From: an uncultured Algibacter sp.
GTDB taxonomy: Bacteria > Bacteroidota > Bacteroidia > Flavobacteriales > Flavobacteriaceae
Length of the DNA: 64,000 nucleotides
Direction: 5' to 3'
Assembly: GCF_947495925.1 (NCBI RefSeq)
Contig: NZ_CANMAU010000001.1
Coordinates: 1-64,000 of the forward strand
Below are positions 57,668 to 63,917 of this stretch, one piece after another. Made by a program: the position numbers and the translations under genes. Below the pieces are notes generated by a model. The model saw nothing but the letters and a program-made list of their open reading frames with translations. It was not told where the DNA came from and did no database searches. Positions within the stretch are counted from its first letter, which is position 1, and every line of letters begins with the position of its first letter.

Positions 57668-58951
57668 ATGAATGCCAATGAACCTTTAGCCGAACGCCTT
57701 AGACCAAAAAACCTGAAAGACTATGTCAGTCAGAATCATTTGATAGGTAAAAATGGTTCATTAACCCAACATATTCAGCATGGCTTAATTCCATCAATGA
57801 TATTCTGGGGTCCTCCAGGAACTGGTAAAACTACTTTGGCTAATATTATAGCAACAGAGTCTCAACGTCCTTTTTATTCCTTAAGTGCTATAAATTCAGG
57901 GGTAAAAGATATTAGAGACGTTATTGAAAAAGCCAAACAAAGTGGTGGCTTATTTACCACCAAAAACCCTATTTTGTTTATAGATGAGATTCATAGATTT
58001 AGTAAATCTCAACAGGATTCACTTTTACAAGCGGTGGAAAAAGGTTGGATTACTTTAATAGGAGCCACCACTGAAAACCCAAGTTTTGAAGTTATACCGG
58101 CTCTTTTATCGCGCTGTCAAGTCTACATACTCAATGCTTTTAATAAACAAGATCTAGAAACCCTATTAAAAAGAGCAATCACCACTGATGACCTACTGTC
58201 CAGAAAAAAAATCACTCTCAAGGAAACTGCTGCATTACTAAAAATATCAGGAGGAGATGCCAGAAAATTGCTTAACATATTCGAACTCATTGTCAACACC
58301 TTTGATAGTGAAGTAATTGAAATTACGAATGCAGTTGTACTTCAAAAAGTTCAGAATAATACCGTTCGTTATGACAAAACAGGAGACCAACATTATGATA
58401 TTATTTCTGCATTTATAAAATCTATTCGTGGTAGCGATCCTAATGGAGCCGTTTATTGGTTGGCACGCATGATAGAAGGCGGCGAAGATGTTAAATTTAT
58501 AGCCCGCAGATTGTTAATCTCGGCGAGCGAAGATATAGGTAATGCAAACCCTACGGCCTTAGTAATTGCTAATAACACGTTTCAAGCAGTTTCCACAATT
58601 GGATATCCAGAATCAAGAATTATACTGAGTCAATGTGCAACATATTTGGCTTGCTCACCTAAAAGCAATGCCTCTTATATGGCTATTGGTAATGCACAAA
58701 AATTAGTTCGAGAAACTGGAGATTTAAGTGTGCCTCTTGAAATACGAAATGCCCCCACTAAACTCATGAAAGAACTAGGGTATGGTGACAATTATAAATA
58801 TGCTCATAACTACAACAACAATTTTGCAGATCAGGAATTTCTACCAGATGAAATAAAAAACACAAAGTTTTATGAGCCAGGAAACAATTCTAGAGAAAAT
58901 GCACACCGAGAGTTTTTAAAGCAACGTTGGAAAGACAAATATAATTACTGA
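57668..58951 (+). CDS. rarA: replication-associated recombination protein A (MgsA/RarA ATPase)
   Basis: This AAA+ ATPase acts at stalled replication forks. The 427-residue protein has [24 protein letters not shown], Walker [10 protein letters not shown], Walker [17 protein letters not shown], sensor region [19 protein letters not shown], and the C-terminal tetramerisation/MgsA domain [41 protein letters not shown]. It stands alone, divergent from the rhomboid gene. Confidence 0.97.
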
Positions 58952-59047: not shown

Positions 59048-59941
59048 TTAAAACTTAATATTTAAAGTTTTTTGTTTTAACACATTGTTTTCATAATACT
59101 CAACCACCCAATCATCACCTATCTTAAAAACTACAGCACTTTTACCTTCTACTAAAAACACATTTTCAAGGTTTGTTTTTTTTACTTTATAAACCACCTT
59201 TGGTGAACTATCAACTAGCTGATATCCATTTTCAATTTTTTGAGCATACAGCACACTATCTAAGACTTTCTTCGAATTTTCCTCCACGGTTTCATTAACA
59301 GGCTTTGGAGTTTCTTTAGCTACCACAGCCGTTGTTGCCACAACCGCAGGAACAGCTAATGAAGCATTAGATGAATTCTCACTAACTTTACTAGCTCCAA
59401 CCTCTTTTTCACTTTCCAATTCTTGAATCTGTTGTTTTAATTGCTTGATTTCCTCTGACTCACTTTTTACAACTGCCGTAGCACCTAAGCCTATGACACC
59501 ATCATCTGGTCTATACGAATAATTAACAGTTTCAAAAGACTTAAAAGCTTCACGCAGCGCTTTATTATAAGCTATTTTAAATTCTTTTTCCCTACTTATT
59601 CCTAGTACCGACTCATAAACTAGCTTACCATTACAATCCTTAAGTACAACTTTTAACTTAGTTGTAAACATGCTTGAATCCTTAATAACATCAGAATCTA
59701 ATGCTAAACACCTATTAAAATTCAAATCTTCGGGATAATCAGTTCCTTCCATAATAGCTTCAAAACCGTACTTCTCAAATAGAAATTGAGTTAGGGAATT
59801 CAATTGATATTGATCATTCTCTTTCAAAAAATCATACTTATTAGGAACAATCACATATTTATAATTGTTAATACTTTTTTGAGCAAAGACAGAAGAGATT
59901 AGAATACATGTAATTAGTGAAGAAAAAAATTTAGTTCTCAT
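59048..59941 (-). CDS. secreted protein with central coiled coil, unrecognised family
   Basis: The 297-residue protein has a signal peptide (LITCILISSVFAQ), an N-terminal alpha/beta domain (about 25-150, with YVIVPNKYDFLKENDQYQLNSLTQFLFEKYGF), a short coiled coil (SEEIKQLKQQIQELESEKE, about 163-182), and an Ala/Val-rich linker (ALAVPAVVATTAVVAKE). A small C-terminal domain ends ENNVLKQKTLNIKF. No catalytic motif is visible. Its start overlaps the end of the DUF5723 gene by 11 bases, so the two are translationally coupled. It probably works with that outer-membrane protein. Confidence 0.55.
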   Translation of the reverse strand: MRTKFFSSLITCILISSVFAQKSINNYKYVIVPNKYDFLKENDQYQLNSLTQFLFEKYGFEAIMEGTDYPEDLNFNRCLALDSDVIKDSSMFTTKLKVVLKDCNGKLVYESVLGISREKEFKIAYNKALREAFKSFETVNYSYRPDDGVIGLGATAVVKSESEEIKQLKQQIQELESEKEVGASKVSENSSNASLAVPAVVATTAVVAKETPKPVNETVEENSKKVLDSVLYAQKIENGYQLVDSSPKVVYKVKKTNLENVFLVEGKSAVVFKIGDDWVVEYYENNVLKQKTLNIKF

Positions 59942-61349
59942 TTTTTTTAAAAATATAGTTAAACCCTAGTTGTAAAGATACTCCTTCTGCATCATATATG
60001 TTTTTATATTGGATAAAATTATCTGCCATTGCATAAAAATTCATTCTTCCAATATGCGCTGACAACCCAATGCCCAAATTATAAAAAGAGTATGAATCTA
60101 TAGTGTAAGTTGCTTTTAATCTTAATCCTTTAAACAGATATCTATAATAATAAGTTGTTAATGCTAATTGGGGTCGTCTTGGTCTATTAACAGCATATAA
60201 TTGAACCCCTGTAGCGTTTAAATAACCTAACTCCTCCTTGATGCAATTACAGTCCTCTTCTTTTTTTTCGCCGAACGCATAGTTTAAGGATGCATTCAGC
60301 TTAATTGGCCTCCAGGTTGTATAGCTTTTATTAGTAACGTCAATATTAAATAACTCTTCAAAGTCCTCTTCAATTTCACTCCAATAATCATCTGCCGTTT
60401 CACTACCGTTAGATTCTGGAAAAATTGGATTAATTCCTTCAAATACATAATCCCCTTTGAGTTCATGATTTTCAACATCTTTACTGTGGTGAATAAAACC
60501 AATATCTAACAAACTACCATCTACTGTCCATTGTTTGGTTATGTTATAACTAAACCCAACATCAAACCCTAATCCAAGGTTACCTCCAAATAATACCCGG
60601 TTAGCAATTGTTTTTATTGCGCCCTCCGAATCTGAATTTTGATCATCATCTAAACTAGCTATTCCTGACGTTCTCAGTTTAAGGTTTAAATCAAAAATAT
60701 GATCATAAACATTATCATTGCCAGGCACAGTAACAAACCTGCCTTTATTTCTAGTTGAATTTACATTAACTATACTTGAATAAATTTTTCCTCTAAAGCC
60801 GTAATTAAGTTTGCTGTTTACTTTCTTATTATAACCCATATGAAAAACAGATATAACTTCAGCACTTAGGCTAAAATCACTCAAATCGAACACCTTATTT
60901 ATATTATTCTGATTACCTTCTAGAGCTAAAATGGCATAATCTTGCGGAAAATAATTAATCATATCTAATTCCTGATACAACCCAAAACTGAGATATTCAT
61001 TTTTTTCATAGCTACTTCCAAAGGCAAACCCTGCGGAAAACAGATCCAATTGTTGATTAAAACTTATATAATCATTATCATTCATGCTATTAACTGCATT
61101 ACGAAGTTTGGTGTTGAAATTAACACCATCATTGGCAAAAACATCATATACCGTTGCCCCAGTAGTTCCACCATTAACATGAATATGAGATAGTAGTGGC
61201 ACCCCAATATAGCCTTTATTACCAACCTTACCCCCAGGATTAAGTATTAAAGATTGAGGGATTTCTAAAAACCCATAAACGATTTGTTTGTTCTGAGAAA
61301 AAGAAACAAACCATAATAAAAATAGTATTAAAGTGCTTCTAATTTTCAT
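59931..61349 (-). CDS. DUF5723 family outer-membrane beta-barrel protein
   Basis: The 472-residue protein has a signal peptide ending VSFSQ and an extended beta-strand pattern. It matches DUF5723: GFLEIPQSLILNPGG near the start, then LSFGLYQELDMINYFPQDY, GFDVGFSYNITKQWTVDGSLLDIGFI, and a last strand VSLQLGFNYIF. This resembles the PorP/FadL-like barrels of Bacteroidota. Its start overlaps the lipoprotein gene stop by four bases and its end overlaps the coiled-coil gene by 11, so the three form a tight cassette. The function is unknown. Confidence 0.72.
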   Translation of the reverse strand: MKIRSTLILFLLWFVSFSQNKQIVYGFLEIPQSLILNPGGKVGNKGYIGVPLLSHIHVNGGTTGATVYDVFANDGVNFNTKLRNAVNSMNDNDYISFNQQLDLFSAGFAFGSSYEKNEYLSFGLYQELDMINYFPQDYAILALEGNQNNINKVFDLSDFSLSAEVISVFHMGYNKKVNSKLNYGFRGKIYSSIVNVNSTRNKGRFVTVPGNDNVYDHIFDLNLKLRTSGIASLDDDQNSDSEGAIKTIANRVLFGGNLGLGFDVGFSYNITKQWTVDGSLLDIGFIHHSKDVENHELKGDYVFEGINPIFPESNGSETADDYWSEIEEDFEELFNIDVTNKSYTTWRPIKLNASLNYAFGEKKEEDCNCIKEELGYLNATGVQLYAVNRPRRPQLALTTYYYRYLFKGLRLKATYTIDSYSFYNLGIGLSAHIGRMNFYAMADNFIQYKNIYDAEGVSLQLGFNYIFKKNEN

Positions 61350-61909
61350 AATGCATCTTCAATTTCAAAATAAAAAACAGCTTTTGATTTTAATTGAATG
61401 GAGCCAGGGGTATCCTCATTTATAGTAGGCCCGGGTAATAACCTGTAAGTAAATAAAATGAAACTCGTGTTTTTAAGAGCTTGGAGGGAATCATCTTCAA
61501 ATGTTTCAATATGTGATGAAAGTACATCTTCTCCTGTTTGAGAAGCCTCTTGAATAACTGTAAATGTATGTTGCAATTGATTGGCTACATCGAGCATATC
61601 TACACGTAATTCAAATCTTCTATTTATAGAATTTATAGTTTCAAAATCAAACTCCGCCTTAACTAAATTATCTAAAATAAAATCATCATCAAAAAATTCA
61701 ATGAAAACAAAGTCTTGAATAATTTCAATTTCGACACCCGAGTCCAAAAATGATGGAGCTGGTTCGTCAAAAAACACCAGACTTGATTCTATTACTGGAG
61801 TAAACACATAGTCCCTAGCTTGTTCAAAGTCCACATCTTTAGCACAAGAACCGAATATTATTAAAATATACAAAACATAGATTATCTTACTCAGGGCTTT
61901 TCTTATCAT
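61346..61909 (-). CDS. small lipoprotein, unrecognised family
   Basis: The 187-residue protein has a lipoprotein signal ending in IIFGSC (Cys near 22). The rest is acidic and beta-rich (VFIEFFDDDFILDNLVKAEFDFETINSINRRFELRVDMLD), as in a small beta-sandwich. It is not assigned to a family. The ATG of the DUF5723 gene overlaps its stop codon (4 bases), which indicates translational coupling, and yjjG lies 27 bases upstream. It is probably the outer-membrane partner of the DUF5723 barrel. Confidence 0.6.
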   Translation of the reverse strand: MIRKALSKIIYVLYILIIFGSCAKDVDFEQARDYVFTPVIESSLVFFDEPAPSFLDSGVEIEIIQDFVFIEFFDDDFILDNLVKAEFDFETINSINRRFELRVDMLDVANQLQHTFTVIQEASQTGEDVLSSHIETFEDDSLQALKNTSFILFTYRLLPGPTINEDTPGSIQLKSKAVFYFEIEDAL

Positions 61910-61936: not shown

Positions 61937-62626
61937 TTACAAATAAAATTTCAATTTAGTGAGCTCATTTATTTGTTTGACATCTTTATCAATTCCAATA
62001 CCTTTAGCATCAAAAAGAATGACATCCATTCCTATGTTTTTAGCACCTAAAATATCAGCTTCATAACTATCTCCAATCATAACGCTTTCATTTACGTTTG
62101 CGTATGCGCTTTCTATAGCATAATTAAATATCTTAGGATTAGGTTTTTTAACACCAACCATTTCAGAATTAGTTACTGTTTTAAAATACTTAATAATATT
62201 TGACAGAACTAATTTTTTATGTTGCACCTCATCAAAACCATTCGTAATGATATGCAAATTATAGTTCAAACTCAAATAATCAAGAACATCGCACGTATTA
62301 TCAAACAAATAATTAAAGGAGGTTAAGTGATTTATATAATCATCTGAAAGCTTATAAATTATATGTTCATCTATTTTAAAATCAATAGCTTGAAACGTTT
62401 CATTGAGTCGAACAAATCGTAACTCTTCTTTTCCTATTTGTTCTTCCCTATAAAGTTTCCAATATTTAAGATTAATAGGTTCGTAGTGAGAAATAAACTC
62501 TTGTAGAGGTATTTCTAAATTATTTATTTTAAAAATCTTTTCAAAAGCTAGAGCAGAATTTTTATCGAAATCCCAAAGTGTATGATCTAAGTCAAAAAAA
62601 ACATCTTTTATATTTTTAAGCTTCAT
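61937..62626 (-). CDS. yjjG: YjjG-family noncanonical pyrimidine nucleotidase (HAD)
   Basis: This HAD phosphatase of 229 residues is similar to E. coli YjjG, which removes phosphate from noncanonical pyrimidine nucleotides. Motif I is DVFFDLDHTLWDFDKNS (nucleophile Asp in DLDHT), motif II is IITNGFD, the Lys is in VGVKKPNPKIF, and motif IV is MIGDSYEADILGAKNIGMDVILFD. The helical cap lies between motifs I and II. It overlaps the end of the upstream deacetylase-like gene by 11 bases. The substrate assignment is inferred from family similarity. Confidence 0.85.
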   Translation of the reverse strand: MKLKNIKDVFFDLDHTLWDFDKNSALAFEKIFKINNLEIPLQEFISHYEPINLKYWKLYREEQIGKEELRFVRLNETFQAIDFKIDEHIIYKLSDDYINHLTSFNYLFDNTCDVLDYLSLNYNLHIITNGFDEVQHKKLVLSNIIKYFKTVTNSEMVGVKKPNPKIFNYAIESAYANVNESVMIGDSYEADILGAKNIGMDVILFDAKGIGIDKDVKQINELTKLKFYL

Positions 62627-63917
62627 TAGCAGAATCTATAATTATATTAAATAATTCTTTAAACCCCTTCCATCTAACATCATCGTTGAAAGTGTAATTA
62701 TGAAAAAGAGGAATAAAAGTACCATTAACTTTTTTAACCGCCTCTATTATTTCATTCATAACTTTCTTCTTATCAAGAAGTGATTTGTGCATTAATAAGG
62801 CATTATCCATAACCTGATATGGAAATACCACTAATGGAGTTTGCACCTCATAATCTAAATCGTAAAACAAAAAAGGTGTACATGATCCAGCTCTAAATCC
62901 AATCTGATTTACATAACCCATGGTATAATCTTCCTGAATTTCTAATGAAATAAGGTTTCTATACGAATCTGGTAAATTAAGCTTTGAGAAAGACTGTCGT
63001 GAGGCTCTTAAATTCGTATTCAATATGTCTTCAATTTTAATTTTCTCTTTTTTTAGAATAGCCTCGTCTTCAATCGCAAGAAAAGAAATTTTAAGACCTA
63101 CTTTACAATAGTCTGCAACATGCTTAATAAGTGAAACATACTTTTTCTTATTCGGGTTTATGCCTTTATCATAAGTAGAATAATCTCCAATTAAAAAAAA
63201 CAAAAGAAATTTAAACTTAGACACTTTCTGCCTATTTATAATATATTTAAATGTATCATCTGGGTCATGTTTAAAGCCAAGCAAGACCGCAAACCTAAAA
63301 TACAAGTTTTTAATTCTCAATCTAAATAAATCAAGAAATATACCTCCAAAAGACCGCATCAATCCCTTCAACTTATAATTATACGGGCTTGGTACATCAA
63401 TAATAGGAACAACGTTGTATTGTCTTTGAGGGAATTCAAACTCTGGAAATTGTTTTTGTAACGCTTCTTTAAACTTGTAAGCCCAAATATCAACAACAGG
63501 TTGTTTCAAAAAGCCTTCTTTAAAAGCTGAGCTTTCTTTTGCTGTAAAACGTCCATATTCATCCTTTACATGAGGCATATATTCCTCATATCTAGATAAC
63601 ATATAGAATGCTGCAGAAAAAATATCAAAAGGCATAGAGCTCTTTTCTCCAACATAAAAGAAACACTTAGTCTCATCCCATTTATGAACGTTAATCTCTA
63701 CATCACTTAAACCTTGCTCAAACAATATGTCGTGACTTTTTATAAAAAACTCATTCCCTAGTTGTTGTTTAGCGTATGACATTTTCAAGCCATCATGTGC
63801 TATAAATTCTTCAATTTTAGCAGTAAAACCAACCTTTACACCAAGTACTCTGGTACAAATATGTTTGAAAATATAATTTAATCTAGGTGATTTTTTATGT
63901 GTATAAACTAAAAGCAT
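62616..63917 (-). CDS. polysaccharide deacetylase-like protein (CE4-related)
   Basis: The 433-residue protein matches the CE4-like polysaccharide deacetylase family found next to radC in many Flavobacteriaceae. Visible parts include PFDIFSAAFYMLSRYEEYMPHVKDEYGRFTAKESSAFKEGF early, VVPIIDVPSPYNYK (with the Asp that starts the catalytic barrel), the central RASRQSFSKLNLPDSYRNL, and GTFIPLFHNYTFNDDVRW near the end, with a likely metal His. It overlaps the radC stop by one base (TAATG). No signal peptide; role in the envelope or polysaccharide metabolism is inferred. Confidence 0.7.
   Translation of the reverse strand: MLLVYTHKKSPRLNYIFKHICTRVLGVKVGFTAKIEEFIAHDGLKMSYAKQQLGNEFFIKSHDILFEQGLSDVEINVHKWDETKCFFYVGEKSSMPFDIFSAAFYMLSRYEEYMPHVKDEYGRFTAKESSAFKEGFLKQPVVDIWAYKFKEALQKQFPEFEFPQRQYNVVPIIDVPSPYNYKLKGLMRSFGGIFLDLFRLRIKNLYFRFAVLLGFKHDPDDTFKYIINRQKVSKFKFLLFFLIGDYSTYDKGINPNKKKYVSLIKHVADYCKVGLKISFLAIEDEAILKKEKIKIEDILNTNLRASRQSFSKLNLPDSYRNLISLEIQEDYTMGYVNQIGFRAGSCTPFLFYDLDYEVQTPLVVFPYQVMDNALLMHKSLLDKKKVMNEIIEAVKKVNGTFIPLFHNYTFNDDVRWKGFKELFNIIIDSANEA

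Follow-up and report, generated by a model that had tools for sequence, protein, structure and literature searches.

The outer envelope of the Bacteroidota is defined by surface lipoprotein-barrel pairs, among them SusCD and BamGH. In the BAM complex of this phylum, the FadL-like barrel BamG is combined with the surface lipoprotein BamH, and this arrangement extends phylum-wide (PMC12611786, PMC12578637). An acidic export signal of surface lipoproteins has also been described (PMC5080379). PorV and PorP/SprF, the shuttles of the T9SS, are outer-membrane barrels of the same phylum, like the barrel studied here. Canonical FadL channels are not known to come with a partner gene for a lipoprotein. 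For DUF5723 the Pfam entry gives no function, partner or classes, and in the literature that we searched neither DUF5723 nor DUF4621 had been given a functional study. In the present study we describe a DUF5723 barrel gene that is paired with a lipoprotein gene, and distinguish such lipoprotein-paired members (class A) from a class B that is partly fused to OmpA domains.

The window is a stretch of 64,000 nucleotides from an uncultured Algibacter sp. An earlier note on this DNA had claimed three overlapping envelope genes, for a lipoprotein, a DUF5723-type barrel and a secreted protein with a coiled coil and an Ala-rich linker (hereafter the arm), and had compared them to an outer-membrane assembly with a periplasmic arm. 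The three minus-strand reading frames are present as claimed (187, 472 and 297 aa; Table 1), and the overlaps of 4 bp (ATGA, lipoprotein/barrel) and 11 bp (barrel/arm) are exact. Gene order is kept in dozens of genomes, many of which retain the 4-bp overlap, and thus the layout is not due to chance. Upstream, yjjG lies 27 bp from the lipoprotein gene and overlaps by 11 bp the gene of a DUF7033 protein, which scores 131 bits against VimE (cut-off 440) and stands beside yjjG across Flavobacteriaceae. Downstream follow the convergent rarA, a rhomboid gene and rlmB. No complete reading frame of radC was found within the window; the gene was seen at the corresponding position in a relative (L101, PF04002). 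The proposed upstream link to yjjG, the deacetylase-like gene and radC holds in that these are conserved neighbours, but they also remain where the lipoprotein-barrel pair is absent. Scans for promoters and terminators yielded no more than shuffled sequences.

Table 1. Features of the locus, in positions of the window.
Feature	Position	Strand	Remarks
rarA (MgsA) AAA+ ATPase	57668..58951	+	Convergent neighbour, marker of the fixed locus
Secreted arm, 297 aa	59048..59941	-	Alpha/beta domain, helix, low-complexity linker, C-terminal beta-meander
DUF5723 outer-membrane beta-barrel, 472 aa	59931..61349	-	Class A (lipoprotein-paired); near-invariant NP(A/G) at residues 37-39
4-bp overlap (ATGA) between barrel start and lipoprotein stop	61346..61349	-	Kept in many relatives
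Lipoprotein of signal-peptidase-II type, 187 aa	61346..61909	-	Jelly-roll domain at the C-terminus; a short representative within a long Bacteroidota lipoprotein family
Codons of C22-AKDVDFEQ	61820..61846	-	Conserved C-x-[KSE]-[DE]-x-D-F-[DN]-Q, like the acidic lipoprotein export signal
yjjG-type HAD pyrimidine nucleotidase (TIGR02254)	61937..62626	-	Neighbour
DUF7033 protein	62616..63917	-	Sub-threshold VimE deacetylase similarity, neighbour

The middle gene encodes, as the note had proposed, a protein of the DUF5723 type, and a full-length one (PF18990, 366.9 bits against a gathering cut-off of 26.8). When the family profile was compared with solved structures, the only match was the FadL-type channel CymD, a weak one made of two low-scoring pieces (E 0.0012). 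It is by this weak match and the NPA-like motif at residues 37-39 that the barrel looks FadL-like. A Cys-x-Cys element at residues 367-369, near the C-terminal third, was seen in 41 of the 51 family barrels checked. In a tree of DUF5723 proteins, class B forms a clade set apart from the remainder, which we call class A. Class B was seen in L061-L066, L086 and L097 (for example L063:6148-8244), and some of its members carry a fusion to thrombospondin type 3 repeats (TSP3) and an OmpA peptidoglycan-binding domain; one genome (G044, L065) carries two class B genes in tandem.

The lipoprotein has a lipobox (..FGSC) with its Cys at residue 22. As single sequences, the lipoprotein and the arm gave nothing convincing in Pfam, NCBIfam or PDB, and NCBIfam and PHROGs offered no useful match for the unassigned proteins of the locus. 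A profile of the short lipoproteins, built from Flavobacteriaceae members only, aligns with the C-terminal 120-130 residues of proteins of 376-931 aa, with E-values of 9.5e-10 (hhalign, long family), 2.6e-8 and 3.6e-6, and two groups of these long lipoproteins match each other at E 3.8e-27. The AF2 model is a beta-sandwich with a pLDDT of 78 (about 90 over residues 80-180). A Foldseek search with this model retrieved mostly generic jelly rolls, and with them the DUF4621 structure 4h3w of Parabacteroides BDI_1231 (E 1.3e-4), which is also the top, weak profile match of the lipoprotein (E 0.025). By profile comparison, the short Flavobacteriaceae lipoprotein is the counterpart of the C-terminal domain in the proteins of this 376-931 aa family, to which DUF4621 (PF15414) belongs. 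Both have the homologous C-terminal jelly roll and both can be encoded upstream of DUF5723, directly so for the DUF4621 gene of L073, whereas the Flavobacteriaceae lipoprotein is about half as long and is missed by Pfam's model. No literature on BDI_1231 and its neighbours was found. The stretch after the Cys resembles the acidic lipoprotein export signal: of the six residues that follow the Cys, two are acidic in the window protein (CAKDVDFE) and at least two in 58 of 78 relatives, while the remaining 20 of 78 have fewer than two, which counts against surface export.

The third protein is probably secreted, as had been claimed, with a signal peptide recognised by eye, a predicted helix at residues 163-182 and an Ala/Val/Lys-rich unstructured linker in a low-confidence model. 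The model is poor (pLDDT 50) and predicts a beta C-terminus; a fold search with it gave only sub-threshold CadC/PelC/TolB-like matches at E about 0.008. Two Cys residues of the alpha/beta domain, C78 and C103, are invariant. The arm is a near-universal, unannotated protein of Flavobacteriaceae whose C-terminal region comes in at least two types, and it is rare outside this family (8 of the 198 genomes of a class sample, six of these eight belonging to the family).

The distribution of the three genes was studied in one draw of 151 Flavobacteriaceae genomes, with adjacency counted from match coordinates and a class cut of at least 231 bits for the DUF5723 barrel. The barrel was found in 78, the lipoprotein in 78 and the arm in 128. 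Barrel and lipoprotein were both present in 76, only one of them in two genomes each and neither in 71; in 76 of the 78 barrel genomes the lipoprotein gene is directly beside the barrel gene, and the pairing is well supported. Among the exceptions, G016, counted as lipoprotein only, has an adjacent DUF5723 below the class cut, G098 has a lipoprotein and no barrel, and G025 a barrel and no lipoprotein. In G098 the lipoprotein gene (L120:4693-5253) is kept beside the arm gene, with no barrel gene left between them. In 72 of the 78 barrel genomes the arm gene is adjacent as well, and the arm is present in 53 genomes that have no barrel, usually still next to rarA, in a locus that is otherwise identical in nearly all the cases inspected. 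Most of the inspected pair-less genomes show the order radC-DUF7033-yjjG-arm with a convergent rarA and yjjG-arm gaps of 1-123 bp. Three Flavobacterium genomes (G128, G095 and G123) carry the pair at another place, apart from the arm, which in G128 and G123 stays at rarA. Co-occurrence of the three genes in other genomes is thus found within Flavobacteriaceae, and shared location explains it better than a shared machine.

Co-divergence was analysed at 41 loci containing all the genes, as the partial correlation of tree distances given rarA and rlmB. The barrel and the lipoprotein gave a partial r of 0.76, the highest of all pairs tested, at a p of 0.002, the lowest value that 500 permutations allow; the test is not perfectly specific, with weaker excess correlation (0.30-0.38) seen also for DUF7033 and the rhomboid protein. 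The arm shows no excess, either with the barrel (-0.03) or with the lipoprotein (0.06). Since it is present without the barrel, stays at rarA and shows no excess co-divergence, we judge the arm not to be part of the pair; it is taken as a separate envelope protein of Flavobacteriaceae, encoded by the next gene at the locus. A quick tree of the flanking genes, covering 70 loci, shows 17 changes in the state of the pair, and well-supported branches force at least 13 of them. Such counts by themselves cannot separate gain from loss, but the constancy of position and order points to repeated loss. Given no fewer than 13 such changes on this tree, the pair is dispensable. The tree of the barrel disagrees with that of the flanks at 5 of 20 strong splits, so that some exchange is possible.

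The pair is ancient and occurs across the whole Bacteroidota phylum, here taken as a broad GTDB grouping. We inspected 64 loci outside Flavobacteriaceae, hand-picked with the best scores first and not a random draw, in which a class A barrel has an HMM-homologous lipoprotein directly upstream in 45 of 52 cases, from 20 family-level groups, and a class B barrel (in this count, one told by an N-terminal motif or a length of more than 620 aa) in none of 12. For 42 of these 45 the gap is at most 20 bp or the genes overlap. One further upstream lipoprotein, in L204, has a larger overlap, and in L074 and L076 lipobox proteins below the HMM threshold lie upstream of the barrel. Beyond the pair itself no gene neighbour recurs phylum-wide among these loci, synteny being lineage-specific; in some groups the neighbours are LptF/LptG, DUF3467, a TPR protein or T9SS cargo. 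A conserved protein that ends in a sorting domain of the T9SS is encoded just upstream of the pair in L088, L196, L198, L199, L201, L227 and L231, in most of which a convergent LptF/LptG gene pair lies on the opposite side.

Identity with proteins already described was also considered. Profiles of lipoprotein, barrel and arm gave no match to the chains of the Flavobacterium BAM structure 9N2D at E up to 10. As 9N2D was in the library, the missing BamG, BamH and BamP matches are meaningful at the level of sequence, and structural resemblance may still exist. We rejected barrel and lipoprotein as BamG and BamH on this result and because about half of the sampled Flavobacteriaceae lack the pair, and the arm as BamP on the lack of a profile match and on its beta C-terminus, predicted in the low-confidence model, against the three-helix C-terminal domain of BamP. 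L141, a FadL-like protein encoded in the same genome, had no BAM match either, and is thus not BamG or too divergent. The barrel was likewise rejected as PorV, with an hhalign probability of 0.9 percent against the probable PorV of its own genome.

Several ways of reading these data were weighed. A single assembly of lipoprotein, barrel and periplasmic coiled-coil arm, as the earlier note had suggested, would agree with the adjacency of the arm in most barrel genomes, with its 11-bp overlap and with the envelope targeting of all three proteins. We consider it very unlikely, as the arm persists where the barrel is missing, in most cases at the same locus, is separated from the pair in the three Flavobacterium genomes, shows a partial r of about zero, and is hardly found beyond the family, in lineages where the pair is common. 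From that proposal the lipoprotein-barrel unit stands, by adjacency within and outside the family and by co-divergence, and the membership of the arm does not. The likeness of the pair to BamG-BamH, a FadL-like barrel with a surface lipoprotein in broadly the same lineages (PMC12611786), raises the idea of an accessory sub-complex helping the folding or assembly of surface-rich outer-membrane proteins, with which it is also consistent that the f18 genomes, devoid of SprA, have no confident DUF5723 match. However, the pair has no detectable homology to BamG and BamH and is not at the described bam loci, and those two proteins behave as essential while the pair has been lost repeatedly; such a role seems improbable to us.

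We give an equally low probability to a link with the T9SS, in which the barrel would be a PorV-like shuttle or attachment platform and the lipoprotein its partner. The conserved T9SS C-terminal signal protein just upstream of the pair in f17, f35 and f46 (outside the class), with LptF/LptG convergent on the opposite side, and the VimE-like neighbour in Flavobacteriaceae argue for it; against it stand the negligible profile similarity to PorV and the occurrence of DUF5723 where SprA_N was not found, namely in G382, in G495 (where the L074 locus consists of lipoprotein and barrel) and in the control Bacteroides ihuae. Because DUF5723 occurs without SprA, strict dependence on the T9SS is unlikely. 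It is also rather doubtful that the pair is structural or adhesive and free of transport, the barrel mainly positioning the surface lipoprotein. The lipoprotein is already anchored in the membrane, and the strong co-divergence suggests a specific interface over mere anchoring, even if the peptidoglycan anchor of OmpA in part of the sister class B and the variable lipoprotein size (178 to 931 aa) would suit such a role.

The reading that we prefer, tentatively and at a little less than an even chance, is a two-component outer-membrane module in which a surface jelly-roll lipoprotein sits on a FadL-type barrel and which handles a hydrophobic or lipid-like ligand. In this module the lipoprotein gene, immediately upstream of the barrel gene, would probably be translationally coupled to it, and its product would be flipped to the cell surface by means of the acidic export signal. 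The N-terminal C-x-x-D-x-D-F-x-Q stretch may then dock on the barrel, leaving the jelly-roll domain to cap it from outside, in a position much like that of the surface lipoprotein BamH on the FadL-like BamG. By a FadL-like mechanism, the ligand would then most likely pass through or be handled by the barrel, with the bound lipoprotein acting as lid or receptor.

The real unit is thus smaller than the proposed one, two genes instead of three, yet far more widespread. An apparently unstudied lipoprotein-barrel pair is spread over the phylum as GTDB broadly circumscribes it, a partner is supplied for DUF5723, a Pfam family of unknown function, and DUF4621 is united with lipoproteins that have no Pfam model. 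The pair may even be, though we consider this unlikely, an unrecognised phylum-wide outer-membrane machine for the transport or placement of lipids, lipoproteins or surface polymers, working in parallel with BamGH, SusCD and the T9SS and independently of them.
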